Positions 6,891 to 48,848 of a stretch of 64,000 nucleotides of DNA are shown here, one piece after another. The first letter of the stretch is position 1, and every line of letters starts with the position of its first letter. The DNA is from Acholoe squamosa (Eukaryota > Annelida > Polychaeta > Phyllodocida > Polynoidae): positions 3,960,501 through 4,024,500 of the forward strand of contig OX439043.1 of assembly GCA_949317995.1 (NCBI GenBank). The letters run 5' to 3'. The notes under the pieces were generated by a model. It saw only the letters and a list, made by a program, of their open reading frames with translations, ran no database searches and had not been told where the DNA came from. The position numbers were made by a program, and so were the translations under genes.

Positions 6891-7346
6891 TCACATCATC
6901 GTCATCATCGCGAGCCTTTGACTCACCAACCGGTCGCTCAGTGTTGGGTTTCTGCTCATTTGCATGACGCTCTTTTTGGGGTGTCTTGTTCGACATGCTT
7001 CAATCAGGAAATGCACGAAATGAGGTCCACAGGTGTCAGCAGAAGTGTCTTGGAGTTGAATACGATTTCTTTGCCACTTGAACAGAGCAGAACGTCTCAG
7101 GAAAGATGAGAACTGTGCGCTCAGCAGAGGTAAACCGAATGAACCAAAGTAGTACACCTCTCCTGTCCTCGACATGTAAAACGCCACCCAATGTTGACCT
7201 GGTAAATGTTGAGGATCCGTGTTACTCACGAAACAAGTGTCCTTGACAGGGTGCTTGGGGATAGTGTCACAAGAGAAAACACCTAGGAAATGATGTTTTG
7301 TGTGAATGTTTTCCTTCAACACTCTGTTTATTTCGAGTGTATTCAT
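6891..7346 (-). pseudogene. Polinton adenain-like cysteine protease, active-site acid lost
   Basis: This 151-codon ORF has the layout of the adenovirus-type maturation protease found in Polintons: a GQHWVAFY block with the catalytic His, YYFGSFGLPL where the family has its acidic residue, and LQDTSADTCGPH with the oxyanion Gln and the catalytic Cys. In this copy the acidic position is Gly (GGT), a single-base change from Asp, so activity is doubtful even though the frame is open. The family cleaves virion precursor proteins. The gene is the last of three minus-strand virion-type genes, and the gypsy-1 LTR ends only 43 bp beyond it. It could still be expressed as an inactive protein. Confidence 0.8.
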
Positions 7347-7363
7347 GCACTACTCTCTCGTCT

Positions 7364-8615
7364 TCAGTTCATATGGTAGTCTGTGATGGGATGTCGATCT
7401 CTGGTCAGCTCGACAACTTTGACGTACACCAAGTACAGGAGCACCGTTGTAATCTCCGCCAGCGCCGTGCCAAAACTGAGCTCCACCCTCAGTTGACCCG
7501 CTTTTATAAGGTTCACCCTACACCCGTCATGCGACCTGTCCAGAGTTAAAACCAGCGGGAACAGCGTGTACCCATTCAGGAAATCCTTGTAGGAAATGCG
7601 GCAGGAGCACGAACCCTCGTACATCCCCGTTTCCGTGTGTAGTGCCAGGTACTCTCTCACCGTTTTTTTTTTTGGCAAAGTTGGGCACATAGGCGTCGTT
7701 CGGCACCTTCTGGTCATTCACTATCACTTGAAGCAAGTTGACATTGCAATGTTTCAGTTCGAACGGGTTCTTGGTGTAACTTCCATTGAAGGCGTCATGG
7801 TCCAGGAAACAAATCATCATGGACTTGGGCAGTTGACCTGTGTTGGAGTGCGTGTAGGTGTTACCTGCAGGGATGGCGTAGCTCGTCACCTCCACTCTGT
7901 TGACTGGGTAGTCGAAGGAACCCTGTTCTATCACAGCCTTTTCGTGCGTTTCCACCACAGCATCAGCTACCAGTGCGCGACGCACATACAGCTAAGCTTT
8001 GTGGATCTTGAGTTTGTATTCCGTGTCGCCGTCGCTCATCATATAGAAACTAGGGGAAGCTTGTTTCAGAGTCAGAATGATTTCCGTCTCTCCAGCTATG
8101 AACTTTGGTTGATGAGTCAGGTCAAAGCGGAGTCTCGCCATCAGCGGAAAGCACCTTTTGGAGATGAGTTCTTTGCCCACCTTGAACCCAGGGTTCTTGT
8201 CAGATAAGGTGTCGAATTTACCAGCTGCGTCTTGGTGCCAGTCTTGGATGCTTGTGATGTTGTCCTTCTCCCCTTTGTCGTAGTTGAGTAAACCTTCCAG
8301 GTAAGCTCTGGAGGGGTAGGTCTTGGTGCCAGGCACTTTGAAACCTCCGATGGAGACTTGGTTGTTGTTCGCCAGAGCCACCTTGTCGTTGGCGTCCAGA
8401 GCCTCGCCGTTTGGTTTCAGGACCTCGCATTCTAGATGAAGGTAGTTTTCGTTCAGGTCTGTGTACTCTTGCGACTTACTGATAGTGAAATTTATGTTGC
8501 TCCCGTCTACCAAATAGTTTTTCGTCTCTAACCCGACGAAGGTCGACTTCAGGATAGTGGTCTGAGTCAGTGCTATGGCATGCAGGTCGAGCTTAGAGAG
8601 ATGTATGAAGGCCAT
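7364..8615 (-). pseudogene. Polinton major capsid protein (F54H12.2-like), broken
   Basis: Three pieces read in order from 8615: 207 codons (8615-7992), 152 codons in the same frame after a TAG (7985-7527), and a third piece in another frame (7717-7364). Landmarks are MAFIHLSKLDLHA at the start, PVNRVEVTSYAIPAGN, DHDAFNGSYTKNPFELKH in the middle, and NGYTLFPLVLTLD and NLIKAGQLRVEL near the end. These are hallmarks of the Polinton double-jelly-roll capsid family, often annotated in animals as 'uncharacterized protein F54H12.2-like'. The two breaks are one nonsense codon (7992-7994) and one frameshift at an 11-base A run on the coding strand (near 7663-7673), where a sequencing slip is also possible. 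Total length (about 417 codons) is near full size. Confidence 0.85.
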
Positions 8616-8800
8616 TGCACTCCCTCTTCACGTCGGTGGTAGACTGACGCCAGTGACCACTAGTCCTTTTTATTTATAGGTCGTTTGCCTAGTGATCGAA
8701 AATGTCACCCCGTCGTCTTTTACAGGAACCTTCGCCCGTCTGAGAAGCAGGAGAGCGCCTCCGACATTTGGTCACCACTTTTTTTCCCGGAGAGAGCACT

Positions 8801-11733: not shown

Positions 11734-11877
11734 ATTGATTGTGTGTGCACGACCATGGGCCAGTCATCTCATCCTTTATGTCAAGGTGAATATCGATGCC
11801 CCATTGACAATCCACTAGCCTCCCGTATTGAACCCCTGTGTTAAATAACCAGCGCCAAATCCGCATGATGACATAGT

Positions 11878-12057
11878 TGAAGTCAGGATGCTTGATGAAG
11901 TATACCTTTATTAGGTGATGATACTTTGGTTACTATGGTACAATACAACTATGTACTTATGTCAACATGCTTCAGAGTTTATAATCTGTGCCATGTGCGC
12001 TGCGGGCCGCCATCGCTAACTAACTTCCGGTCCCGCGAGCTCACGTCTCTACCAACA
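11878..12057 (-). repeat. gypsy-2 3' LTR
   Basis: This is the 180-bp terminal repeat on the left side. It contains TTTATT (minus-strand AATAAA) at about 11910 and ends in TG...CA. Confidence 0.88.
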
Positions 12058-12141
12058 TCTCCCTTTTATCAATTTTTTTTTTAAATGGAACAAACACATC
12101 CCTGCAGACAAGTATTGTCCAACGTCAAGTGTTAAAACAGT

Positions 12142-13486
12142 CTATGTTGAAAGAAAATACAAATTATATTGAGTCACAAAATAAACCATATGTTTGAACA
12201 TGGTCTGAACAAATGAGTCTCTATGCAAGCATATAGTCATCATATCTTGAAGGTCGTGAGATCTTCCTTGTCCTTGTGCGACGAACCGGAGAGGGGCTCG
12301 GGGCAAGGGAGGTACCACCGCCCACAAGAGAGCCACTAGTGGCCCTGGACTGAGATGAAGCAATGTTGCTGCTAGGTGGTGCAGGTGACTTTGGCACTTT
12401 CTGTGGGGAACAAGTCTCCTTTGGTTACACCTCCTGCCAGTTGTCAGCTGGTTCTGGTGAAATGTTGGCTCTGGCTGATGGTGTAACTGGAGCCAAGGGT
12501 ATTCTGGGCTGAGTTGTCTGCCCATGTCTAATACCAACTGGGAGAGGAGCAGCTGGCCGCACATGAACCCGGTTGCGGCTAGCCAGTCCCCCATCAGTCT
12601 GAACGGTGTATGATCTGGGTCTTTTGCAGTCAACTACCTGCCCGTAGCCCCATGGTTGACCACGCCTGTTGGGGGGGGGGGCTTCAGGTAAGCATAGTCT
12701 CCAACTGAGAGAGGTGGATGGTTTACAGTATTCCTATCATATAGCGCCTTGGAGGCCACCCTGCGAGTATTGATTTTCTCCTGCACCACCTGACTGTCCG
12801 CCACCTGAGAGTCTAACAGCCTGTCTGATGTTGGGAGAGGAGTGCGTGTCCGACAGGATAGCATACGCTGAGCAGGAGAGTATGAATATCCAGCCTGGGG
12901 GGGTGTTATGGTGAAGTAACAGGGCGAGTTTGATGTTCATCGATTTCTTTAGCAACCCCTTAGCTACCTTCACTGCTGCCTCTGCGCGACCATTCCCTTT
13001 TGGGTAATAAGGTGATGATGTCATGTGGGTGAACCTGAACCTGGTCACCATGTCTGCATAGTCTTTACTAATAAATTGAGGGCCATTATATGTGTGTATT
13101 CTTGCTGGGGCCCCAAAAGTGGCTAGGTGAACCTCTGTCTTGTCGACTACTGTAGAGGCAAGGGTGTCTCCCAGCTTATCTATCTCGATCCAATCTGAGT
13201 AATGACACACAGTGACTAGGTAGTCCTTCCCCTCAAATGCACACAAGTCTTGGCCAAGTAGTTCCCAAGGTCTTGTCAGTATAGGCAGTGACAGCATGGG
13301 CTCCTTTTGTGATGATGAACCATATACTGCACAGGTCTCGCAGGCATCACACATGTCCTTTATCGTGGCTCTCATTCCTGGCCAGAATAGTACCTCCTTA
13401 GCCATCCTGTAGTTTGATTCAGCTCCAAGGAGATTTGCATGGATCTTGGCTAACATTGCGGCCCTGAGCTGCTGAGGCACTAACAC
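12142..13486 (-). pseudogene. gypsy-2 integrase with altered catalytic residue
   Basis: The block 13486-12737 shows a zinc-binding-like C..C (ACETCAVYGS), then the DDE core: GQDLCAF (first Asp), TYNGPQF and SSPYYPKGNGRAEAAVK (Glu). At the second catalytic position the family Asp is Tyr (TAT), which should abolish strand transfer. Near 12900 the frame shifts, and the C-terminal part continues at 12864-12634 and 12633-12142, the latter Pro/Gln/His-rich. Integrase inserts element cDNA in the nucleus. This copy is a pseudogene. Confidence 0.8.
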
Positions 13487-13540
13487 AGTCTCCCCCTTGT
13501 ATACAGCCTCATTCAGTACAGACAGCTCATCTCTGTATCC

Positions 13541-15521
13541 CTAAAAAGGCCTGAGATCCTTGGGAACTACAGCACGGTCATCTGGCCAGCCGTTGACAAT
13601 CATGTCTCGTAAAGCATTGAGTAACTCATCAGCGTTAGTCATTTGCACTATCTCCCTCTCAGTCTCTCCAGTCAACCTGGGACTGCGGCTGACAGATTCA
13701 CACTTGAGTCTGAACACCTCAAATCCTGTTGTGGGTGTATTGACGGGGGTGCCTAAAGCTGCTCTGGATAGGGTGTCTGCTATGAGAAGCGTGGTGCCTT
13801 TCCTGTACTCCAATGTAAAACGGTACCGCTGCAAGGTCATCAACATCCTTTGCAGTCTGGCTGGTGCTTTGTGTAATGGTTTTGACATGATAGGTACCAA
13901 GGGTTTGTGATCAGTGTGCACCGTAACATCAGCTTTCCCATAAAGCCATTGGTCGATCTTGTGGAGACCATGGCAAATGGCAAGGCATTCTTTTTCCATT
14001 TGAGAATACCTCCTTTCTGTGTCACTGAGCCGGCATGAGCTGAAGGCTACTGGTTGCAGAAGTGTGGCTCCTAAACCTGACTCACTTGCATCAACCTGCA
14101 TTGTCACCGGTTTATCCAGACTGTAGTAGAGGAGTGTAGGTGCTGATGCGATGAGCTTCTTGGCTCTTTGGAATGCTGATTCCTGCACCTTGGACCACAT
14201 GAAACTGGCACCGTCTTTTGTCAGCATACGTAAGGGCTGTATAGTCGAGCTCAGATTGTCACAAAACTGTAATAGGTATGTGGCCATGCCTATAAACCGC
14301 ATCAAACCAGCCTTGTCTGTTGGGCTTGCCATTCTCATTCACTTTCTCAGGGTCGGGCCGCAAGCCACTATCAGCGATGATGTTCCCCATGAACTTGAGC
14401 TCCCGAAGAGCAAACTTGAACTTATCTGGATTGAGTTTGATGTCTTTAGCCACACAACGTTCCATCAATGCCACCTATTTTCTGTCATGGCTGGTCTTTG
14501 CTGTTGTGTAGTCCTCACCCTCACCATAAACAAGGATATCATCAGCAATGTAAATTATTCCTTCAAGGTTCTCAAGGGCATCAAAGAGTCTCTTTTGGAA
14601 CTCCTCTGGTGCACATGATATACCAAAAGGTATATTCGAAGCCAGTGATATCGACCATATGATGTGTGCATGGTGGTGTGCATAGACAACTCTTCATCAA
14701 GAGGAATGTGTAGGAATCCCTCCTGAACATCAAGGAGAGAGAAACACTTGGCATTACCCAATTTGTGTAAATGTTCCTTCAATGTGGGGATTTGGAAGAG
14801 AGGTCTTATCAATGCCTTGTTGACGGTCTGACTTGGGTCAATACAGACACGGAATTTCTTCGGGGTTTCTCTGATGATCATGGCAAAGGTGGATGAGCCC
14901 ACACAGGGAGTGGGCTCATCCACCTTTGCCATGATTCCCAATGTCACATACCTGTCCAGTGCTTCCTTCTCTTTTCCCCGCTTGGCGATCGGCACCCTGG
15001 TGATTTGGCATCTGGACTGGCACAATATCTGCCTTCAACTCAAAATGGACAGGTGGGCCCAGACACCCTAGTCCCTGAAAGCTGTCCTTGTATTCACGCA
15101 AGACTGCATTTTTAGTCAAGTTGCCTGCTGGAGGCAGGCATCTGGAGCGAGGGATCTGAATAGTATTTGGTGAGGGTTTAGCTTGGTCCAGATCTGTTGC
15201 AGAAACCACATCCGGAGATAGACACAGGACCTTGTCCGCCATAATCTTGATAAGACCCAGATTCTCACTGTCTTCTCCTGAGAGAAGTGCAGGTTTCTCA
15301 CCAATGTCACTGTCTGCTAGCACCTGGAATTCCAAGTCATCATAACGATCCCCCTGGTCACATAAGAGGGTGATCTGACCAATGGGCTTTACTGGAGCAG
15401 TGTTTTTGTACGGGAAGAGCTGGTATGGTGAATGGGTCATCTTGATAGACGGAAACATACTCTTGGCCAGGCGTTCTGGCATTGTGTTGATTCCAGCTGC
15501 TGAGTCTATTTGTATCTTCAT
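13541..15521 (-). pseudogene. gypsy-2 protease, reverse transcriptase and RNase H
   Basis: The protease block (15521 downward) has IDSAAGINTM as the aspartic active-site region (DSA instead of the more usual DTG/DSG). The reverse transcriptase start includes AKVDEPT, FRVCIDPSQ and the KCFSLLDVQEGF block (15025-14555). A frame change separates this from the connection and RNase H region (14338-13541), with GLMRFIGMATYL, VDASESGLGA, EKECLAICHGL and VHTDHKPL. Several frame changes split the polyprotein. An exact palindrome lies inside the reverse transcriptase part. Together these parts would copy element RNA into DNA. Confidence 0.8.
14877..14935. repeat. perfect 26-bp palindrome inside reverse transcriptase
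   Basis: The arms 14877-14902 and 14910-14935 are exact reverse complements, separated by a 7-base spacer. On the minus strand both arms stay in the reverse transcriptase frame, around AKVDEPT and STFAMI. Confidence 0.95.
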
Positions 15522-15673
15522 TCTGTTGAACCTGTCACCCTTATCCGACAGAAGAAGCTGTGCAAAGTACTTAAGCCCTTTCCTTGCACCAGCTTGAAAG
15601 ACAGCTGTGTCTTCCAGGGAGTAACACTGCTCGTCATAGTCTACTTCTGAGTAAGGGTCTTGGGGTACATGAG

Positions 15674-16636
15674 CTAGGTCTTCATCAGTCTTGACCGCAT
15701 GGATGCTATGTTGACTTCTTCTGTCGTCAGGCGGTAACTTATTCTGAGGCCCATGGTTGACCCCTCTACCCCGCTGATTTTTCCTGGAATGACCCGCACT
15801 GCGGCTCTGGGTCTGTGGGCGGTGACTGTCTCCTTGAGGTTCAAGACAGACACGGGAGAAGTGATCGTTGCCACCACACTTGCCACACTTCTTTCCATTG
15901 GCTGGACACTTCGACCAAGGGTGTGTCCCACGTCTGTCACCGCACTAGTGGCACGTACCGTTCTCACGTTTCAGCTTCTTATCTTTGTGAGCCTTTCCTT
16001 TTGCCGTCCAATTCACAGCCTCGTCTGTGCCTCTGGTGACTTCGCCAATAAGCTGATTAGCCCGCTTTGCAACTTCTAACACCTTGGCTTCTGCAACAAC
16101 ATCACTAAGTGTCTTTTTTGTGTTGTCAGCTTTGACATGACATTTTAGAAGCTCTGCCCGAATGTCACTGTTTTGTAAACCAAAAATAAACTTGTCACGG
16201 CTCATCTCATCAGTTAAAGTACCATAGTTACACAGGCTGCACTCACGCCATACATGGGTCTCCCAGTCTTACACCAACTCATGGGTGCCCTGTGTGGCCA
16301 TCCAAAAGGTGAATCTGTCTGTCAACAGCGAGGATGTGGCCGAGCCCGTGTAGTGAGTTCTGAGTCTCTCCAACCACATCCACGGCTTGCTTTTGTCCCC
16401 GGCTGAAATTTGGGGCTCTATGCTGTACCGAATAACCTGCAGTGCCTCATCGGGCATAGATGAACGTAACGCAGTAATTTCCATCACTGATACTCAGCCT
16501 GGTGAGTTTCGGGATTCTTGGACAGGTCTCTATATTCGGACTCGATGCAGTAGTCGTTGAATCTCATTTCAAAGTTTTTGAAGTTTTCTGGGATGTTCCC
16601 TGTTAGATTTAGTTCTGGCTTCTTGGGTCTAGACAT
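15674..16636 (-). pseudogene. gypsy-2 gag with paired zinc knuckles
   Basis: The start codon is ATG at 16636-16634 (MSRPKKPELNLTGNIPENF). After about 48 codons the frame shifts near 16489, then continues (16487-16269) to a TAA that lies in frame with the next block (16205-15945: SRDKFIFGLQNSDIRAEL, a typical gag helix region). Nucleocapsid cysteines follow around 15830-15960, one knuckle clearly CGKCGGNDHFSRVC, with a TAG inside the knuckle just before it. Gag forms the particle and packages RNA. At least two stops and one frameshift make this copy nonfunctional. The 5' leader is separated from the LTR by the LINE insertion. Confidence 0.78.
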
Positions 16637-16638
16637 GT

Positions 16639-17187
16639 TTGAAATTCAAGTCACCACCACCAGTGTGTAGGATGCCTACTCGCATCCTACACACCAAAAT
16701 GGGCATAGTTTACCAAGGCGTTAATGCACACTTTTCAAATTGGTTCCCATGCAAACTTGAGTTTATTCACAAAGGCATCAAATACACCTACAATAGCGTA
16801 GAACAAGGGTATTTCCATGTCAGATTGTTAGAGCTAGGTCATCCGGCTGAAGCCCGAGAAGTGCTCTCAATGACAGATCCACGTTTGATCAAGTTGAAAG
16901 GTGACTCCAAAAAAATCCCAATGAATCACCCATTTCTGGATCTCGAACCCTCCCTTATGGAGGACCTGATTAAAGCTAAATATGGGCAGAATAAAGAAAT
17001 AATGCAAGACTTATTAAACACTGGGTTGAGGCAATTAATAGAGGGAACTGGCTCGGACAAGTGGGCTTCAGGTTGGCCGTGGAGCACTGTAAACAATGCG
17101 AAGTATGAAACTGAAGATAAGTTCCCGGGAAAGAACTTGCACGGGAAGATCGTGATGCGTGTAAGAGAATTCTATAGTCAGACCTGA
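16639..17187 (+). CDS. NADAR-domain protein (YbiA-like) carried by a LINE
   Basis: The ORF is open for 182 codons. The true start is probably an internal Met (MPTRIL or MGIVYQG, near residues 12-21), because the first codons overlap gypsy-2 leader sequence and the hairpin. Family signatures in order are HFSNWFPCKLEF with the FxN motif, TYNSVEQGYF with the conserved Glu, KAKYGQNKEIMQDLLNTG, LIEGTGSD and GKNLHGKIVMRVRE at the C-terminus. NADAR proteins act on ADP-ribose-linked substrates, and some remove ADP-ribose from modified guanine bases. The ORF is intact while the downstream SGNH and EN-RT frames are broken. Spacing to the SGNH ORF is 84 bp. Possible roles, such as protecting LINE RNA or DNA from host ADP-ribosylation, are speculation. 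Confidence 0.75.
   Translation: MKFKSPPPVCRMPTRILHTKMGIVYQGVNAHFSNWFPCKLEFIHKGIKYTYNSVEQGYFHVRLLELGHPAEAREVLSMTDPRLIKLKGDSKKIPMNHPFLDLEPSLMEDLIKAKYGQNKEIMQDLLNTGLRQLIEGTGSDKWASGWPWSTVNNAKYETEDKFPGKNLHGKIVMRVREFYSQT
16663..16694 (+). repeat. 13-bp hairpin at LINE 5' end
   Basis: GTGTGTAGGATGC (16663-16675) and its exact reverse complement (16682-16694) flank a 6-base loop. It lies at the inferred first bases of the LINE and immediately before the NADAR domain, so it could be a structured 5' UTR element. Confidence 0.8.
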
Positions 17188-17271
17188 AGTTAATAATTTA
17201 GTGTGTATCAAATAACTACTGCTTAGTGTTGCTTCTATCTTGAATGCAATAATCTGTCACTACAGTTTCAG

Positions 17272-18073
17272 GTGAAGGTCGAAATGTCGGTTCTATTGTC
17301 CGGGGACTCTCGTGGTGAAGGAATGGGGGTTCTGGTAGCTGACGCTCTAGATGATGCTGAAAATAATGAAGTTGGTGAGTGTGCTCATAAATCATGGCCC
17401 ATTGCTACAATTCAGGATAAAGTGCTGAAAAAACTTGACACTGAGGCTTATGACCTGGTCGTGTTCATGGCCGGAGCCTGCGATGTTACAGTGCGGCACT
17501 ATATTCATGGGAAACGTGACATCTACTTCCCTCACATTGATGCTGCCACTTGTAGGGCGGTAGTCTCAGTCAGGCTAAGCCGGATGCTACAGGTCTTGAA
17601 TAAACAACATCCTGAAACCAAATATGTTATTTGTACAATATTCGGCATGGACCTTCAGAAATTCAACAGCAAGAGCTTGCCAGATCCCAATCAGCTTGCA
17701 TTGAATAGGAGCATCAAACTCCTAAAGGGAGATGTGCAATATCTCAACACCATCTACAAAATGCCCACCATCAAGCTGCACACTGTATTCCACAAAAAAC
17801 AGGTGGAATCGGGGCAAGACAGGGAGAAAGGTTGGCAAAGCCCCGAAATTCTCATGCCAATATAGCCCTAAAAAAATGAGACATGGCCTACATGCCACAG
17901 ATGTTGTTAAGAAGGAACTAGCAGCACTTATTGCCCAGGTAGTCAAGAAAATCCTGCCGCCTGAGAAGGTTGAGAATGTTGCTGGAGCTGATGATGTAAT
18001 GGAAGATGAAGAAGATGATCAGTATGAATGGGACGAGGTGACTGCTCAGATAAATAAAATATGCTTAGGCTGA
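17272..18073 (+). pseudogene. SGNH-hydrolase-like LINE ORF, frameshifted
   Basis: The first 190 codons carry VLLSGDSRGEGMG (block I with the nucleophile Ser) and VVFMAGACDVT (block III position). The frame then shifts near 17845. The continuation (to 18073) has KMRHGLHATDVV, where the family's DxxH block would be. The His is kept, but the preceding acidic residue is replaced. It ends in an acidic tail (MEDEEDDQYEWDE). SGNH esterase domains occur in ORF1 of CR1/L2-type LINEs, where they are thought to aid membrane or RNP handling. The frameshift and missing acid imply loss of enzyme activity in this copy. Confidence 0.65.
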
Positions 18074-19290
18074 GCATTTGTCCATAAGATTATAACACAA
18101 GTTCATTGACTGCTGGTTGTCTTGGGAGCAATTCATGAGGATTGCACCTAATACACCTTTTCTATAATTGACAAAGCCAAGGGATACCTGACTGGTTGTC
18201 TTGGGAGCAATTCGTGAGGATTGCACCTACTATGACTATTATGACCACTTGATAAGTTCATAAAATATCTGAACTTTCTAAAAATGACCTGTTATTCTAC
18301 CCTAGGCAACATGTTGCAATTTATTCACATAGCACATCCAAATTTTAGAGTGGAACTTTTGTTAAAAGAAATGCATGCTTCACTCATTGTAAGCTTAGTC
18401 AAGCTGGTGTTGGTACATTGATGATTATACAAAGGGTGGTCTATGTTCTTGGTCGCTTAGTGTTAAGTAATACATGGTTACATATATTTACTCATGTACT
18501 ACTTCTGTATTATTTTTGTCTACAGTTTTTTGTCACTTGAATGGCATGATACAATGAAATGCTAATTAAATAGCTAATCGGTTCATAATTGAAAAATGTG
18601 TCACTGTTATTGATGTATTGTAATTTTTGTTCTATTCTATTTGTAGGTAAGAACATTACTACTGGTGACGGTGGAATGATTACAGTGGGTGCATTGTGGT
18701 GTCTCAGAGAGCTACGAATGCATAGATAAGATCTATGACCAAACTAGTACAAGGTCCGGTAACACTGGGTGAGCTAACTAACCCTTCATTAGTAGTAACT
18801 TATTACTTAATTTATCAATATTAATCCCTAACTTTTCATGTGATTCTACATGACTAAGAAAATATTCTATACTAGAATCAAAATAACCAAGGGCTTACAA
18901 CCTTTTTGAACCTCTAACTTTAACTTTTTTTCCCTCCTTCTTTAGGTGCTTATTTGTAATTTATTTAACTAATTTACTGATTTGATAAGATGCAATAAAA
19001 TATATAAATTTAAGTTAAAAACTCAGAGTTTACTTACTCATTGACACAACACAATATTGCATATGCGTGGTTTTTTATCTTTTGTCACGGAGCTGAGATT
19101 ATCTTATAAGTAACTTGGTATTAGCTCCCTCTCTCTTGTTGTATTCCACCCACAGAACATTAAGTTGGTTATTTTTGTTGGTGGATATCTGAGCCTCTGG
19201 CTAGAATTTAGCCAGGGGCTCCTTTATTTTTAATTTATAATTCTTTATTTTTTGTATATAAACTATTGTCTACTTGTATTTGTTTATGTA
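18074..19290 (+). other. LINE inter-ORF spacer with a 2-copy direct repeat
   Basis: No ORF is supported here. A segment GACTGCTGGTTGTCTTGGGA... near 18107-18160 is repeated near 18188-18230 (TGGTTGTCTTGGGAGCAATT shared, one base different further on). A spacer of this length between ORFs is long for a LINE and may hide a decayed coding part or an internal promoter. Confidence 0.45.
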
Positions 19291-21884
19291 ATGGCAACAA
19301 CTACACGATTAAATGATTTTCTAAATATGAAGGGCTTGAAAATGGTACATCTAAATACGTGAAGCATGTTTAACAAAAGGCAGGAAATATTTGACCATTT
19401 AGATGGTGCTGATATAGTTGGAATGAGTGAAACTTGGTTACATGAAGACTATGATGATGACTTAATAAACTGGGAAGGCATGAATTTGTTCAGGCTGGAC
19501 CGAAAAAGAAAGAAAGGCGGAGGTTTAGCAGTTTACGTTTGAGATGACATTAATCTTGATGTTAAGATACGCAATGACATTAGTTCTAGTAACAAGGATA
19601 TTGAATGTCTAGTATTAGATCTAGTCTTGAAGACACATACTTTACAATTGGTCACTCTATATAGACCTCCTTCTGGCAAGATAGATAAGTTTTTTCTACA
19701 TTTGTCTCGTGTTATGGAAATTGCAGATAAAGAAGGGCTTGAACAATGGATTATGGGGGACATAAATATAAATACCTTGCATGAAAAACTACCTAGTACT
19801 GTAAAGCTAATCGATGCTTGCCGATTTAACGGCTATCATAAACTCATTAATCAGTGCACTAGACCCTATAAGATTATTGTATCATGTTTAGATAATATAT
19901 TGACTAATTACAATGAGTCTATTACATCTGGTGTCTTGAATTTTTTAGTAAGTGATCATCTGCCTGTGTTTGCTGTAAAAACAAGAGAGAAGGTTGACTA
20001 TATTAAAAAGAAAGTTTGGGTGAGAAAGTACAAAGGTTATGATGAAGAAACTTTCAAAGAGTGGCTAATAATGGCAGACTGGGATGTTTTTTATGAACTG
20101 CACGACCCTGATGGTGCTTGGTCATTCATTGAAAACTTGATAATTGAATACTTAGATGAGTACTGTCCTTGGTCTGAAATTGAGATTGTGGACAGAAGAA
20201 ATAAATAGATGACACATGACATCTTGTCAATGATAAATGAACGCGAGGACAATGTGGAAATGTTTTCGAAAATTAAGGATGATTATTATCTCAATAAAGC
20301 CAGGCAGCTACGTTGTAGAATTAATAAGGCTATCAGGTACTCAAAAGCCAACCAGGTCAAGTCTGCACTGGAGGAGGCTAAGACTGACCCAAAGCGATTC
20401 TGGAGAGTTTTAAATGGAGTTTTGAAACCAGAGGTGCAAATTGCCCCTCCAGAATTGATAGGTGATGATGGTTTTATCAAGTCAGAGCACGAATCTGTAA
20501 ATTATTTAAATGATTATTTCTCAAATATTGGTGCTAAACTATCTTCAGTTTTCACAGATAATGGTTATCCTGAGCGTGTATTAATGACTGAACCTGTTGA
20601 TCCAGCTGAAATTCCTGTGCGAGTTGAAAAAGGCTTTGTTGAGATGCTCATAAAAGAAATAAATGTCAACAAAACTTCCGGAATTGATGGTATTAGATGT
20701 GATATTTTGAAAACAGCACTGTTATTTTTGTTAGATCCTGTTACTAGGTTGTACGAACTGAGCTTCACCAGTGGCATATACGTAAGGCGTTCGATTGTGT
20801 TAATCACGCCTATCTTGTTGAAATTTTAGGACAACTTGGTTTACATGACACAACACTCAATTGGCTAATGAGTTACTTAACTGAGAGAAGCCAGTATACT
20901 AAAATTGGTTCCTTTGTTTCTAATGAAGCCCCAGTACGATTTGGTGTCCCGCAAGGGTCTGTATTGGGACCGCTCTTGTTCATACTATATATAAATGATG
21001 TCAGTGATGTTCTTGCTGATTGTAAACATTATCTTTATGCAGACGACTTGGTAATATACAGCTCAAACAACAAAGTTGAAACTATAACCAATAGGTTACA
21101 AACGGCATTAAATCGATTACAATCCTGGTTTGTAACCAAGAGGCTTACTGCTAACACGGATAAATCCAAAGTTGTGTGTTATGGTTCATGCAAAAAGTTA
21201 CCAAAGTCCAGGGGCCAAAAACTATATTTGCATAACAAAGAACTTGAAACTCTGAATAACTACTGCTACTTAGGACTAAAGTTAGACAGTCTATTGAGTT
21301 TTGAACCTGCGCTAAAGGATTTAAATAGTAAAATTAACCACCCTCTTTTTAGATTCAGTAAATTCAGAAACATGTTATCTGAAAAAGTTGCTGTAACAGT
21401 CTATAAAACCACCATAATGTCTGGTTTTGATTACGCTTGTTTTGCCTATGAGGGGGCTAATGAAGGCCTGTTAAAAAAGTTAGACAGAATGCAGAAGAGA
21501 GGCCTGAAAATTTGTTTCAGAGGTTTGGATCTTAATGAAGAAGAGCTCCATGAACGGGCTAATATCCCACTCCTGATGAGGAGACGACAAGAATTATTGC
21601 TTAGCTTCATGTACAAATTATCAAGAAATCCAGATTGGGTAGATGAGGAAATCAGAAGGCCAGGTATGAGGTCCGAATCAAAGATCAAGATAGTCATTCC
21701 CAGAGCACGTAACATGGGATTCAACAACTCGCCGCTATATAGAGGAGTTGAGTTATGGAACAATCTCCGAGCTGATGTCCAACACAGTGAAAGTAAACTT
21801 AAATTTAAAGCAAGAATTAGGCAGATACAAGACTTGTCCAAGATGATGTTAATGGGTGATGAGCTGAATGAGCTGGATGAGTAA
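19291..21884 (+). pseudogene. LINE endonuclease-reverse transcriptase, internally deleted
   Basis: From ATG 19291 one frame carries an APE-type endonuclease: MSETWL, LYRPPSGK, WIMGDININ and LVSDHLPVF. Three in-frame stops interrupt it (19360 TGA, 19540 TGA, 20206 TAG). The reverse transcriptase N-terminal region follows (NKTSGIDGIRCDIL, near 20690). At about 20780 the sequence jumps directly to a block that another frame reads as KAFDCVNHAYLVEIL, so the fingers and part of the palm are missing. The rest (20868-21884) is open, with GVPQGSVLGPLLF, LYADDLVIY and a C-terminal extension. The enzyme would nick target DNA and copy LINE RNA there, but this copy cannot. Confidence 0.85.
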
Positions 21885-22433
21885 TATAAAAAAAGATACA
21901 GGTTAGGGAGCTGTTGAAAGACTTCACCTTATCCTGATTGAGTAGAGGGAGCTGTTGTTTGCTGACTACACCCTCTACTAGAATTTATTCATGTGGACCT
22001 GTTGAAAGACTACACTGCATGAAATTCATCCATGAGCTCACAGTGACTATACTCTCATACTGTATATCTGCTGATCATCTGTTTAAGATATGTTTTGTAC
22101 CTACTGATCTGTCCATATATATCCTATTGGTATAGTGTAATACATGCTAGTATAAAACTTGTTGATAGTAACAAACTGGTGTACCATGCCTGCTGCCCTT
22201 CTTTTTGAAATTTTATTGTAAGATTATAGAGGTTGCTATTTGTGTACATAGTATATACTGTTTGTTATATAGATTTTATTTTTTCTGTTTATATTATTGT
22301 TCTCATTCTTCATTGTATAAATTCCCATCTTTATTCATTGATCTATGTGCAAACAACCACTTAATGTAATAACTGAACGAGGATTCACATTATTGTCTAA
22401 TTTTACCACTTACTGTATGAATAGTGACTTGAC

Positions 22434-22464
22434 AATAAAACATTTTCAAACCTCAAAAAAAAAA
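22434..22464 (+). terminator. LINE polyadenylation signal and A tail
   Basis: AATAAA at 22434-22439 is followed about 15 bases later by ten A residues (22455-22464), the expected 3' end of a retrotransposed LINE. Confidence 0.75.
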
Positions 22465-22531
22465 CCACAAGAAGAATGAGAATGTTTGTTGTTGCACTAC
22501 CTTGTGATTTTGCTTTTGGGTTCCTGACAAC

Positions 22532-22547
22532 CCCACTTCTGACACCA
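22532..22547 (-). promoter_or_regulatory. gypsy-2 primer-binding site, tRNA-Leu type
   Basis: The plus strand reads CCCACTTCTGACACCA, which equals the 3' end of an animal tRNA-Leu including CCA. On the element strand this is TGGTGTCAGAAGTGGG, three bases after the 5' LTR. It primes minus-strand cDNA synthesis. Confidence 0.85.
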
Positions 22548-22550
22548 AGT

Positions 22551-22730
22551 TGAAGTCAGGATGCTTGATGAAGTATACCTTTATTAGGTGATGATACTTT
22601 GGTTACTATGGTACAATACAACTATGTACTTACGTCAACATGCTTCAGAGTTCATAATCTGTGCCATGTGCACTGCGGGCCGCCATTGCTAACTAACTTC
22701 CGGTCCCGCGAGCTCACGTCTCTACCAACA
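22551..22730 (-). repeat. gypsy-2 5' LTR
   Basis: This is the 180-bp partner of 11878-12057, with about four visible differences, most at CpG. Confidence 0.88.
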
Positions 22731-22905
22731 ACATCATAGGTACATTGCGCATGCACGACTGCTTCAAATCGTAAACAAACAAGATGGCGGCACACAGAAT
22801 TTTCGGGTAGACAACAGGTGAATAAGGGTTTAATTTCAATCTTATTGATGAAATATCCATTGATTTTCCACTCAAACACCTTGACATAAATGTAAAGATG
22901 AACTC

Positions 22906-22992
22906 TGATCAGTTTGAGCTTTCTGTTTCTTCACTCGCGCTTCGTGTAGAACAGGCAGGAAGCATGAAGAAACGGTCAGCTCAAACTGATCA
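22906..22992. repeat. 15-bp inverted repeat
   Basis: TGATCAGTTTGAGCT (22906-22920) and its exact reverse complement (22978-22992) flank a 57-bp spacer. The surrounding ORF (22898-23167) has no recognisable domain and is not annotated as a gene. Confidence 0.7.
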
Positions 22993-23111
22993 TCGTTCAC
23001 CTTTACCATTTTACTGCGAGACTGGAGCAAGCTTGATATTACATAAGGAGTTGTTTATTTCGGGAACAAGTAGCACAACAAGAGTAGGGCCTCCCATTTG
23101 GCTGGTCACGG

Positions 23112-23465
23112 TGATTGGCGGGTACATTTCGCCACCAGACTGGTACCAACTTTCGCGCGCCACCTAACCCAGTAGGGGGCTTCTTTGCTCAACTTATTCT
23201 TCTACTCAGGCTTCCCTAGCCCACTCAAAATGGACGATAAAACCTCTTTCCTACCGCCTCAGATGTGTGTAGTGCACATATTTGTGGGTGATTGGCGGGT
23301 ACATTTCGCCACCAGACTGGTACCAACTTTCGCGCGCCACCTAACCCAGTAGGGGGCTTCTTTGCTCAACTTATTCTTCTACTCAGGCTTCCCTAGCCCA
23401 CTCAAAATGGACGATAAAACCTCTTTCCTACCGCCTCAGATGTGTGTAATGCACATATTTGTGGG
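23112..23465 (+). repeat. 177-bp tandem duplication containing SINE sequence
   Basis: Two adjacent copies (23112-23288, 23289-23465) are nearly identical. The second half of each (AGGCTTCCCTAGCCCACT...GTGTGTAGTGCACATA) matches the SINE at 50822-50998 and at 60256-60434. SINE sequence continues past the second copy to about 23510 (ACACATTCCTCTGTGAAATT). Confidence 0.85.
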
Positions 23466-23644
23466 CACAGACACATTCCTCTGTGAAATTGTGTAATGTA
23501 GTTCTCCCACTGCTACATTAGGTTTTTCTACCATCATTCATGCTAGTTGGCATGGTAACCGGCTTGGACATAACTTGGTCACAAATCACTTGTCATGTAC
23601 TGTTCCATGTCAGCTCAGCTACTCAATACGTTCCAAGCTATGTT

Positions 23645-39900: not shown

Positions 39901-42900
39901 GGAATTTCTATAATGTTTTCTGTGAGTGGATTTCCAGCCAGTGTGGCTCTTATCAGTCCCTGCCCACTGTGCACAGGCTGCACTGGTTCTCACACATTTC
40001 AGACCTTGCTTTACTTAATCTCAAATTGAATTTGATTGAACGATCATAGAGGGTAACCAATTATATCACTGTAAGCACAACAGTTTGGGGATTAATGGGC
40101 TATATTTTGCATCAAAAGGAACTAAGATAAGTATTATAGATCATGTTGGAAAGTCAAAATTTTCTAAATGGTGTAGAATGTCGTAAAAGTTATGTCGCGA
40201 TTCGTCCGTACGACGATCGACATTCGTTCTCAGCTTGGCGCGAACCAGGGCGAGAACCGCAACTCATGATGTACTTCTAAAGCATATTTTCAGTAAATAC
40301 AAGTCTTATATACAACACTGGTAGTCTATAATCCTTCATGGTGACAGCAAGTGGGCAACTAGACAAGTGGACATCAATGACAAGTGCAGCTAAGTGAAAC
40401 TCAACTCAAACTGATGTTTTGAAACTGTCACTGTCAGTCACTCAACTAGGTCAAGTTGTGAACTCAGCAATACCAGTGTCTGTGTGTGTGTTTACTACTG
40501 ACAACTACTCAGAATTGTTGTTATATGAACTATTTTGTAGGACTCATTGACTCTACATAGGCCTATGCTTTACTCAGAAGTGCAACAGTGTCCATAAGTG
40601 AAAGTGCCACTCAAAGTTTTTGGCTAAAACTCAGAATAGTAGTTCAACATGGGTGATCAAAAGGCTTCTGGGGAAATTCCCTTTTATCCAACCTTTGATG
40701 AAAAATCAGCAGATCTGTCTCAGGAATGGGAAGACTGGCTAGAGGGGTTGGAAGCTATGTTTGCACTGCAATCTTTTACAAAAGACCATGAAAATGAGGA
40801 GAAATATGACAAACTGTTTTATTATCTCAGAACTACTAGGAAAATTCTCAAGAAATTGGACAATAATGGGGTTGCAACTAGAAGCTATAAGTTAGCTAAG
40901 GAGGCACTCACCAAGCATTTTTCCCCTGGAAAAACCTCATTTGCCCTCCTGCATAAACTCTATCACACTAGACAGGAAAAGGGGGAGACTATGGATAGTT
41001 TCTACCATCGTGTCCGTGATGTCATGGACTCGCTAGACCTGACAAAGAAGAAGGTGGAAGAAATTGAGGAACTTCTAATTATTGCACAACTCGTAAACTG
41101 CACTCACAATGATGGCATCCGGCGTAGAACTTTGCGCACTCGTGGGGCAATAAATCTGACGGAATTCCTCGATCGGGCTCGAAGTGATGAGTCCGCACTC
41201 AAAGAGTCATCCGAAATTAGTGGTACAGCTAACGACGCGGCGGCTGCTCTCGCAGTGAACAAGCATCACCATAAGAAGAAATCGGGTCAAGACACTCAGT
41301 CTTCGGGATCGTCCCGGAAGAAGAAGACATCCGCACCAGCTCAGTCAGGCAAATGTCCATTCTGCGGTGGTGGTCCACATGACCGTCATCGTTGTCCTGC
41401 AAAGAACTCAGTCTGCCATAATTGTAAAATTAAAGGACACTTCATCAAGGTTTGCAGGAAACCAAAGTCCGTTAATGAGGTCATCGAGAACGATAACTAC
41501 TCGGAGATACTGCAGACGCAAGAGACCTTCCTCGGTTCAGTCGATACTCCCCAGGGAGCGGTGTCTAAGAAGGTCACGGGGGTCGTCATCAATGGTATCC
41601 CCACTCCTATGCGCATCGACACCGGAGCAGAGGCTACACTCATAGATAGCCAACTCTATGCCGAAAAGTTCAGCTCGGAGGAACTGCTGGCCTCCGACTG
41701 TGTGTTCCGGGGTGCAAAACAAGGCCAGTTTTCAGCACTAGGCTTCTTTAATGGAGTCATTCAGCATGGACAGAAAAAGGTCAAAGAGCGGATCTATGTC
41801 ATAGAAAACGCATCTAACCTTCTCAGCTGCAGATCATCGACAGCACTCGGACTGGTAGTATTCACATGCTCTGTCTCACAGTATAAGGAGCAGTACCCAA
41901 CATTGTTCAATGGCCTGGGTAAACTCGAGAAGACCTACAAGATTCAACTCAGGGATGACGCAGAGCCATATGAGGTTATGACTCCTCGACGCGTGTCCAT
42001 CACAATGCATGACAAGGTAGGCAAGGAGCTCAAACGCCTACAGAATCTTGGAGTCATCACTCCGGTCAGCCAACCGACGGACTGGTGTGCACCAGTCGTG
42101 GTAGTTCCGAAGTCGAACGGAGACGTTCGCTTGTGCGTGGACCTCACCAGACTCAATAAGGCTGTTAAGAGACCTAGGCATGTGTTGCCATCAGTTGACT
42201 ATGTTCTGGGACAAATCGGTGAGGCCAAAGTATTCTCCAAACTCGATGCCAATAGTGGTTATCATCAGGTTGAATTGGACGAGGAGTCGCGTCTCCTCAC
42301 TACATTCATCACTACCCATGGTAGGTTTGCCTACAACCGACTGCCATTTGGTATCACCTCAGCACCAGAGTTTTACCAGAAACAAGTCTCCAACATCATT
42401 GCCGGACTCCCGGGAGTTGTATGTCTCATGGATGACATCATGATATCTGGTAAAGATGAAGCTGAGCACGATCAGCGTCTACATGCAACACTCAGCAGAC
42501 TCGCAGCTGCAGGAATCACACTCAACAAAGACAAATGTGTCTTCAAACAGTCATCTATCAGCTTCCTGGGTCAGATCATATCAGCTGAAGGCATCAAGGC
42601 CGACCCAGAGAAGGTAGCAGCGATCAAGGAGATGAGTATTCCTTCCGACGTATCGGAACTCCGCCGTTTTATCGGCATGGTGAATCATCTGGGGAAGTTC
42701 ACACCAGACCTCTCTACGGTAATTCAGCCACTACGTGAACTCCTAAGCACCAAGAGTGAATGGTTCTGGGGACCATCTCAACAGGAGGCGTTTGACAACA
42801 TCAAGGACATACTAAGCAATACTCCTGTACTGGCACTGTACAAAGCCGACCTTGAGACCAAGGTATCCGCCGACTCGTCCTCGGGGCAGTGCTGATGCAG

Positions 42901-45900
42901 AAAAACAACTCCATTTGGCGTCCTGTTGCCTATGCTTCCAGATCTCTCTCCGAGACTGAACGCCGCTATGCTCAGATAGAAAAGGAAGCTCTAGCAAGCA
43001 CTTGGGCATGCGAGAAGTTCCGTGATTACCTTATCGGTAAACACTTCACTCTAGAGACAGACCATAAGCCGCTAATACCTCTTCTTGGTTCTAAAGACTT
43101 GGACCTGCTCACTCCAAGAATCCAGAGGTTTAGAATGCGTCTTATGTGGTACGACTACAGTATCATCCATGTGCCGGGCAAGGAACTCTATACAGCCGAC
43201 ACCCTATCCCGAGCCCCAGGCACAGGGCCATCAGAGGCCGACATCCAGTTCCAGGAAGACACTACGGTATATGTGAACTTTGTTCGCAGATCTCTTCCTG
43301 CATCCGACCAACGCTTAGAACAGATTCGTCAGCACCAATGGGAAGATGATATTTGTCGAGAAGTAGCTATGTACGTGCGGGATGGATGGCCAGACCGATC
43401 ACAGGTCAAGGGTATTGCGAAGAAGTATCTACCCTTTCAAGCAGATCTCAACATCGTGGACGATCTGTTACTCATGGGTACTCGCATCGTCATCCCATCA
43501 TCTCTTCGCCCAGACATCCTCAGTAAGTTACACGAAGGGCATCAAGGTATCACCAAGTGTCGTCAGCTGGCACGAGACAGTGTTTGGTGGCCCGGATGTA
43601 GCACAGATGTAGAAGAGTTAATCTCGCGATGTCATCACTGCCGGATTAAGAATCCGAACTACATGGAACCACTGATTCCATCTACTCTACCAGACCATCC
43701 ATGGCAAAAGGTTGCCACAGACCTGTTCCAGCTAGGAGAGGTACACTACATCGTTGTCGTAGATTTCTACTCCAGGTTTGCTTTCTACAAGAAACTAGAA
43801 TCTACAACTTCGAATACCATTGTTGAGACTATGAAGTCGATCTTCGCAGATCAAGGCATCCCTCAAATAGTGTGTTCAGACAATGGGCCTCAGTATTCAA
43901 GCCAAGACTTTCAGAAATTCGCTAAAGAGTATGGATTCCTCCATATTACTAGCTCACCAGGGCATCCCTCCGGGAACGGTGAAGCCGAAAGGGCAGTCCG
44001 CACTCTAAAGGACATCATCAAAGCACCTGATCCTTATATTGCACTCCTTAATCTGAGAAACTCACCAATCAGAAATGGGTTTAGCCCAGCGCAATTGCTC
44101 ATGGGACGTCGCCTTAACACTAAAATCCCAATCCTTCCATCTAAATTGGGAATAAACCCTCCAGATATGGACACCATCCGACAACGCGAGGAGGAATATA
44201 AGCGCAAGCTAAAGGAAAACTTTGATAACCATCACAGAGCACATGATCTCACTCCACTCAAACCAGGAGACGAGGTGTGGTTGCCAGATAGGAAAGAGAA
44301 GGCAACAGTAAAGGAATCTCATCATCACGATAGGTCGTATATAGTTCAAACGCCTAAGAAGACTCTTGTGCGAAACAGAGTCCAGATGAAGGAACTGCCA
44401 GCACCACAGTCAGCTCCACAGTCAGCTCCACAGCCAGCTCCACAGCCAGTTCAACAGGTATCTCAGCCGGTGGAAACTCCACCAGTACCGCCAACACCTA
44501 CTACACCAAAGGCAGTACCAGCTAGTCCAGCCAAATCAGTGACTCCTAGCCAATCACAGTCACCTAAGATCACTCGTACCAGATTGGGTCGAGAGATCCG
44601 TAAACCAGACAGGTTTAAAGACTAGTTTAGGGACATGAACGCTGAGGGTTCATGCGTGGAAGACGTGCTAGAAACCTCTCTCCACAAGTTTAGTTTTGTT
44701 GGTTATCGTTAAAACCCAAGTATCTGTATTATCATAAAGTTCAAAGACTAAAGGTTCTAGTCTATGTTTTATACTCAAGCATTATATCAAACTCCAAAGA
44801 CTCGTATGAGATTATATCTAACTAAAAGACTTATCGTATCAAACTCAAAGACTCGTATGAGACATATATCATATCATCATATCAAAACTCAAAGACTCGT
44901 ATGAGATACATCAAACTCCCTCATTTTATTAGACTCAATACTCACAGTATATATCATACTCAAAGACTAAAGAAAGGGAGATGTAGAATGTCGTAAAAGT
45001 TATGTCGCGATTCGTCCGTACGACGATCGACATTCGTTCTCAGCTTGGCGCGAACCAGGGCGAGAACCGCAACTCATGATGTACTTCTAAAGCATATTTT
45101 CAGTAAATACAAGTCTTATATACAACACTGGTAGTCTATAATCCTTCAAATGGCAGTGTGATAAGCAGACCTGAAATTCTTGGATTTTTTACTCAACTCT
45201 CCTATACTCTTTAGCTTTGGGCTAATTTGGGCTAATAGATAATAAATAGCTGATTAAAGATCCTAAAAGTACACACTTTTGTGGTTATCCCATATAAGTT
45301 TAAAAAAGTTACACAAATATTTAGTTTTGATATTTTCGGGTTTAAGTCATAACTCTTCTGAAATATATACAATCTGTCCAGATATTTCATTCTTTCTCCC
45401 TCTATGGTAACTGATAATGTCTTAAGCTTTCAATAGAGGTCTCAAATGTAAAAATTGACCAAGAATTAACAAAATATCAGCATTTTATATATCAAGGTTT
45501 TATAGAAATTACAGTCTGTGCACACCAATACCCTTTGAGAACTGATAAGATATCAAATCAGTGACTGGATCTAGAGTAAAAATACTAAAATGACCCACAA
45601 ATTCTGATTCCTTGGTTATTTTTACCCTTGGTACATGAAAATAGTTAATGTTGACAGTGGAAAAGAGCCCTAAATTAGAAAATCATGTTGATTGATTTAC
45701 TATAGTGACAGATAGGGACTAGCGGGAGTGGGTGCAGGGGTGTTATTCCTAAAGAAAGGGAGGTTCTGTCACTCGAGACACAGTCGAGTGACATATTTTT
45801 GACGTTCGATTCACGCCGAGTTAAGACAATACCCACCTTCATTTAGGTCCTGTTTGATACTTTGAACATGGTTCAACAATTCCTGAAGCGTTGACGTCGC

Positions 45901-48540: not shown

Positions 48541-48848
48541 CTACAGGGAATCTCAGGGGCAGACCCTCCCAGGTGAAGGGAATGCTGCTCTCTGATTAAT
48601 CGAAAATCATCAGTGAGCAACATAGTACAATTGTTTAACACATGATGCTGTGCTGGTGAGAGTCTGCAATGAACACTCTGCTTATACCAAGGGGCCTGCC
48701 AACTCTCCCAGCGTCGCGATAACAGGTTTTCAGGGAGTTTCCCAGTACCTGACTTTCATCTCTGTACCTACTTATGACAGGCATGGCACATAAGTATTTT
48801 TACACAATTTTCTTTATTTTCTTCTCTCTTTTTTCCAGATCAATAACA

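Follow-up and report, generated by a model that had tools for sequence, protein, structure and literature searches.

What is a NADAR gene doing at the head of an animal long interspersed nuclear element (LINE), and is it part of that element at all? The question is raised by 64,000 nucleotides of the polynoid annelid Acholoe squamosa (GenBank assembly GCA_949317995.1, contig OX439043.1, positions 3,960,501 to 4,024,500 of the forward strand; hereafter the window, numbered from its first nucleotide), in which a LINE nested in a long terminal repeat (LTR) retrotransposon carries a NADAR open reading frame (ORF) ahead of an SGNH-hydrolase-type ORF and an endonuclease-reverse transcriptase ORF (ORF2). 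NADAR domains are reported to strip ADP-ribose off guanine, both in DNA (PMC11543638) and in RNA (PMC11833690). The original prediction, made from the letters of the window, held that NADAR was not established as LINE cargo, a view that published precedents overturn: a YbiA-type NADAR domain is described in ORF1 of several Crassostrea gigas Tx1 LINE families, taken from Repbase, and at the N terminus of Pol in Ectocarpus Gypsy elements, and processing of the RNA intermediate has been proposed as its role in retroelements (PMC12477816). Among the open-licence literature matches listed, we found no report that pairs NADAR with an SGNH ORF in a LINE. The novelty of the locus thus appears to be the presence of both in one LINE, known parts in a new combination. 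On balance we think it somewhat probable that NADAR is a true component of this LINE.

Three plus-strand coding blocks lie within one insertion

The LINE interrupts an LTR element whose two repeats (11875-12057 and 22548-22730) are identical at 179 of 183 positions and whose ends are both flanked by ACAT (11871-11874 and 22731-22734). Minus-strand matches to reverse transcriptase (RT), RNase H and integrase follow one another in that order, which is the gypsy order. By our reading of the sequence, the primer-binding site of this gypsy-type element lies on one side of the LINE and the beginning of its gag frame on the other. NADAR, SGNH and endonuclease-RT had been predicted as consecutive plus-strand blocks inside a single insertion, and this order was recovered (Table 1). 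The predicted start of the insertion at 16639 had to be moved, since 16639-16657 still belongs to the LTR element and the true start falls at about 16658 or 16661. The candidate target duplication is the 5-bp ACCAC (16653-16657 or 16656-16660 on the left, 22464-22468 on the right), a match that is weak taken alone and that allows two placements at the left end; 5 bp is the duplication length reported for inserts of the zebrafish L2 element ZfL2-1 (PMC4245944). A run of ten A residues closes the right end only (22455-22464). Neither a second copy of the LINE nor an empty site of the LTR element was found within the window.

The left end of the insertion bears a strong hairpin (-25 kcal/mol, z = -5.8 against 200 shuffles), one of four perfect hairpins in the 64 kb (arm of at least 12, loop of 3-10), and the NADAR ATG follows 4 nt downstream of it. 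This position suggests that the insertion starts where a NADAR-first transcript could start; the hairpin may either mark the genuine 5' terminus of the LINE or have arisen as a side effect of second-strand synthesis.

At the other end of the coding region, ORF2, whose frame by our reading opens at about 19291, matches the RT profile strongly (PF00078, E = 7.2e-22) and an endonuclease profile weakly (PF14529, E = 0.019, under the cut-off). The three stops and the deletion ascribed to it by the original prediction were confirmed, with stops at 19360, 19540 and 20206 and about 98 codons gone near 20780 by comparison with its relatives P0007 and P0001. Pfam detected no coding gene between SGNH and ORF2 in any of the three plus frames, and no RNA family matched at gathering score across 16000-23500.

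Table 1. Coordinates of the LINE, its parts and the element that it interrupts (positions in the window).
Feature	Position	Strand	Evidence or detail
Gypsy-type LTR retrotransposon, with the LINE nested inside	11875..22730	-	LTR pair, flanks, domain order
LINE insertion, about 5.8 kb	16658 or 16661..22464	+	Candidate target duplication, A-run
5'-terminal hairpin	16663..16694	+	13-bp perfect inverted repeat, 6-nt loop
NADAR ORF, complete, 162 amino acids	16699..17187	+	PF08719; ATG 16699, TGA 17185-17187
NADAR-SGNH spacer, 96 nt, no A-run	17188..17283	+	
SGNH/GDSL-type ORF in ORF1 position, frameshifted	17284..18073	+	Relatives P0121-P0123; fold search with P0122 model
A+T-rich inter-ORF region	18074..19290	+	41-nt repeat twice (18113, 18192); AATAAA 18994-18999
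ORF2, endonuclease (weak) and RT	19291..21884	+	Pfam, relatives
3' untranslated region ending in A-run	21885..22464	+	

The NADAR frame keeps its catalytic residues and departs at binding positions

The first ORF matches PF08719 over profile positions 11-160 of 163 (E = 1.3e-17, 64.9 bits against a cut-off of 35.1), and it matched 228 of 50,697 phage records by tblastn (E ≤0.01), all at less than 60% identity. We compared it with E. coli YbiA (23% identity) and four phage NADARs (27-30%) in an alignment of six sequences (A5), numbering residues after the Phytophthora enzyme, which we take to be PDB entry 8bau because its residues fit the published numbering with an offset of 2. The equivalents of Phytophthora E43, E125, D130 and W133 are invariant in all six sequences. 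They include the catalytic glutamate (E35 in the LINE protein, E88 in the E. coli C7 enzyme) and E115, the counterpart of E125, a residue described as the mark of the YbiA subfamily (PMC11543638). The likeness ends at three positions where the other five sequences agree: the essential Lys50 (K95 in E. coli C7) is replaced by R42, Arg79 by Asp and Trp89 by Phe. The K95R mutant of the C7 enzyme is reported to keep hydrolysis in vitro and to lose the rescue from DarT1 (PMC11543638). Residues 79 and 89, both changed in the LINE protein, contact the pyrophosphate; these contacts are known from one enzyme and form no part of a formal family definition. Two further differences (Y84 to Pro and D86 to Asn, in a weak alignment with E = 0.065) say little, as E. 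coli YbiA deviates at both positions as well, with Pro and Arg. Single-sequence folding of NADAR gave no usable model (mean predicted local distance difference test score, pLDDT, 32.5). Judging from these residues, enzymatic activity of the LINE protein should not be taken for granted despite its intact frame.

The profile matches also bear on the proposal that the substrates of the protein are small molecules, whether riboflavin intermediates or derivatives of ADP-ribose in free form, and that the nucleic acid of the LINE gains nothing from it directly. It would be in keeping with a match to the N-glycosidase model TIGR02464 (E = 4.7e-13, though under its cut-off) and with the reported action of bacterial and plant NADARs on riboflavin intermediates (PMC11543638), but we consider it very unlikely, as the capture of NADAR by unrelated retroelements and RNA viruses would in our judgement fit a nucleic-acid or counter-defence role better (PMC12477816, PMC9503650).

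The NADAR frame is intact, with start and stop, as predicted; the original prediction had also found this notable beside a decayed endonuclease-RT, and here chance suffices. Over 3383 bp, the other two ORFs hold five lesions, namely three stops, a deletion and a frameshift. At this rate 0.72 lesions are expected in NADAR, and none at all with a probability of 0.49 (0.65 counting stops only). In simulations (3000 at each level), the frame stayed free of stops in 81, 65, 36, 12 and 6% of cases at 1, 2, 5, 10 and 15% divergence, respectively. Low divergence of the LINE copy is likely, since it is younger than an LTR element that differs at 4 of 183 LTR sites.

A GT at 17161 and an AG at 17265 could join NADAR to SGNH in frame, a pairing that is likely due to chance. 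Splicing of the two was rejected because it would remove the conserved end of the domain (R156, invariant in A5) and because retrotransposed RNA would as a rule have lost such an intron.

The SGNH-type second ORF lacks an N-terminal extension

The SGNH-type identity proposed for the second ORF was supported by its relatives and by a fold search, as was its frameshift: the frame opens with the ATG at 17284, breaks between about 17790 and about 17870, and meets a stop (18071-18073) in another frame. The Pfam match to GDSL is weak in the LINE copy (E = 0.0093) and stronger, though under the cut-off, in P0121 (1.4e-5); P0122 and P0123 gave none. These three relatives have 273-275 residues and are 49-51% identical to the LINE protein; P0122 starts at the same methionine, P0121 ten residues upstream and P0123 inside. 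A model of P0122 (mean pLDDT 59) retrieved 13 PDB entries at E ≤0.001, with low TM-scores of 0.33-0.47 by query length. By their titles, 12 of the 13 are esterases, lipases, a thioesterase, PAF-type enzymes or O-acetyltransferases, two of them named GDSL, and the remaining one is a designed scaffold. We presume that the matches without GDSL in their titles also have SGNH folds, and we assign this fold to the LINE ORF with moderate certainty.

The catalytic motifs are kept in part. GDSR, with the catalytic serine, is present in three of the four sequences, P0123 starting downstream of it, and the Asp-x-x-His motif reads DGCH in all three relatives and HGLH in the LINE copy, which has lost the Asp. 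The block III asparagine of the oxyanion hole, at the position that we take to be given by the G-x-N-D motif, is replaced by Cys in all four. GDSR begins at residue 7 in both the LINE ORF and P0122, so that neither a coiled coil nor an arginine-rich part could fit N-terminally of it. The ORF1 protein of ZfL2-1, by comparison, has its esterase behind both of these, with the catalytic serine at residue 143 (PMC3905857). LINEs with an esterase-type (Type IV) ORF1, ZfL2-1 among them, share with the annelid element an SGNH-type ORF before the endonuclease-RT (PMC3905857, PMC4120745). The annelid element differs in having no N-terminal part ahead of GDSR, in the replacement of Asn by Cys and in its separate NADAR ORF.

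This architecture gives some room to the view that NADAR is a genuine part of the LINE and works as something other than a hydrolase, binding RNA or partners and standing in for the missing N terminus of the esterase ORF1, much as NADAR domains serve nematode trans-splicing in the protein SNA-3 (PMC9303266). The position of GDSR excludes a ZfL2-1-like N-terminal part, NADAR occupies that very place, and three otherwise conserved binding positions are altered; we nevertheless hold this view to be unlikely, since the protein has lost neither of the catalytic glutamates and still has its equivalents of D130 and W133. Mutations of N-glycosidase-type residues are reported to impair SNA-3 itself, so that a role on RNA does not exclude catalysis, although the authors of that study allow for an effect on folding (PMC9303266).

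Clade of the LINE

No RNase H was matched by Pfam in the ORFs of the LINE in the window, in P0055 or in P0001, and of the RT and apurinic/apyrimidinic (AP)-type endonuclease expected of the CR1/L2 lineage (Jockey superfamily), the former is strong and the latter weak. The LINE is probably CR1/L2-like, a name that we base on RT motifs presumed to be diagnostic. RTEX is a real alternative, as RT and endonuclease without RNase H may fit it equally. The CR1/L2 placement is weakened by the description of esterase ORF1s, within that superfamily, in only two vertebrate L2 and CR1 groups (PMC4120745), and such ORF1s are also reported from RTEX and Penelope elements, with cnidarian and sponge hosts (PMC3905857). 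CR1/L2 ORF1s are further described as modular and exchanged (PMC4120745).

Is NADAR a component of the LINE?

Several features of the insertion argue that NADAR belongs to it. NADAR, SGNH and ORF2 lie on one strand, in order, between the two candidate duplications; the 96 nt that separate NADAR from SGNH hold no A-run, which the insertion has at its right end only; and the NADAR ORF, placed at the extreme 5' end with its ATG just behind the terminal hairpin, encodes the entire domain as a protein of its own. NADAR is moreover reported from other retroelements (PMC12477816). The principal rival is an accident in a single copy, through a template switch to a host NADAR messenger during target-primed reverse transcription or through a NADAR retrocopy and the LINE having come to lie at the same place. 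This we regard as a substantial possibility, though not the one we lean to: the spacer without an A-run, the single pair of candidate duplications, and the completeness, orientation and extreme 5' position of the NADAR ORF all speak against it.

The search for relatives is where an accident finds its support. In a protein database of 5.8 billion sequences, the RT has at least seven close relatives (P0001-P0005, P0007 and P0055, among the best 120 of 6834 hits; 55-63% identity over 40-94% of the query). Three SGNH relatives were found with a joined NADAR+SGNH query, of which they cover 48-52%, the SGNH part only.

The following results weigh against NADAR as a component or as a hydrolase. NADAR alone yielded 5 candidates (lengths of about 89-283) and no hit in the protein database, and the joined query yielded 908 candidates (lengths of about 184-586) and 3 hits, none of which aligns with NADAR. 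At the level of the proteins themselves, the three SGNH relatives all lack a fused NADAR; the longest contigs that carry these relatives measure 1.5-4.1 kb. The viral contigs scanned yielded no relative of RT, NADAR or SGNH, and the genome contigs none of NADAR or RT. The LINE with NADAR is known from one copy, the only one in the window. In addition, the unexplained 1.2-kb stretch between SGNH and ORF2, with its AATAAA and no detected coding signal, could reflect more than one event, the K50R, R79D and W89F substitutions suggest that binding of ADP-ribose may be weaker or different, and we know of no host transferase that acts on the LINE. The lack of a NADAR relative beside those of SGNH and RT implies that NADAR is either limited to a LINE subfamily or was caught by one copy. 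Across the wider LINE family, NADAR is either unconserved or evolving too fast for the search, and it is shorter than the SGNH and RT queries and harder to detect.

A proposed role for NADAR in the LINE

If NADAR is a component, we see an even chance that it works as a guanine ADP-ribosyl hydrolase. The full proposal, in which a LINE subfamily has NADAR as its first cistron and uses it to clear guanine ADP-ribose from LINE RNA or complementary DNA (cDNA), we put forward tentatively, at slightly under an even chance. The copy in the window would be nearly full length and would derive from an RNA with three ORFs, NADAR, SGNH and endonuclease-RT. NADAR would have been captured relatively recently as an accessory gene of the subfamily and would be translated as the 5'-most ORF of the LINE RNA. 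A YbiA-type hydrolase could then remove ADP-ribose from guanines of that RNA, or of the cDNA as it is made by target-primed reverse transcription; left in place, the adduct would block translation or copying. We infer the presence of NADAR in other copies, its translation, its substrate and a restraint of the LINE by ADP-ribosylation; counter-defence against ADP-ribosylation, as first suggested for this locus, is a reasonable inference.

The known systems resemble this arrangement in part. The Tx1 elements of Crassostrea gigas are likewise LINEs with NADAR upstream of the endonuclease-RT; they belong to another clade and have NADAR inside the ORF1 protein, and their description, in the excerpts available, mentions no SGNH ORF, whereas here a separate minimal NADAR ORF is followed by SGNH. 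Gypsy elements of Ectocarpus also bear a YbiA-type NADAR but are LTR elements of a brown alga with the domain fused to Pol. E. coli YbiA and the Phytophthora NADAR share the whole domain and both catalytic glutamates with the LINE protein, and differ from it at K50, R79 and W89. NADARs are reported from phages, large DNA viruses and animal RNA viruses as well (PMC9503650), and those in the polyproteins of animal RNA viruses again have a selfish, RNA-using carrier, but one that is a virus and not a LINE (PMC9503650). It is conceivable, if doubtful, that SGNH-ORF LINEs are a third retroelement lineage, besides Tx1 and Gypsy, to have independently taken NADAR as first cistron, in response to a host defence that places ADP-ribose on guanines of retroelement RNA or cDNA, a mark that NADAR would take off.

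Other features of the window

A second LTR retrotransposon (40172-45148) is apparently young, its LTRs being identical at 167 of 167 positions, with AATGG as a candidate flanking duplication. Its ORFs (40643-42895 and 42856-44625) overlap in different frames, and the first has RVT_1, RNase H and zinc-knuckle matches. Minus-strand ORFs at 6891-8627 include an adenovirus-type protease (PF00770, E = 4.4e-5), from which we presume a Polinton/Maverick fragment; the ORF at 7992-8627 had no Pfam match. A tandem array at 58013-59897 comprises 29.0 copies of a 65-bp unit with 98% matches, and the ORF that adjoins it (59798-60259), without a Pfam match, is DIRS-like by reading only. Finally, a 622-residue ORF (48753-50621) with a weak filamin repeat (E = 0.0011, under the cut-off) is possibly a host gene.

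Significance

The function of animal NADARs is described as largely unclear (PMC11125620), and vertebrates are reported to be without NADAR (PMC11543638, PMC11833690). If NADAR has indeed been captured time and again by unrelated retroelements, these are probably under pressure from the ADP-ribosylation of nucleic acids in their hosts. One could in that case look for the host transferase responsible, with LINE RNA and cDNA as a defined substrate.

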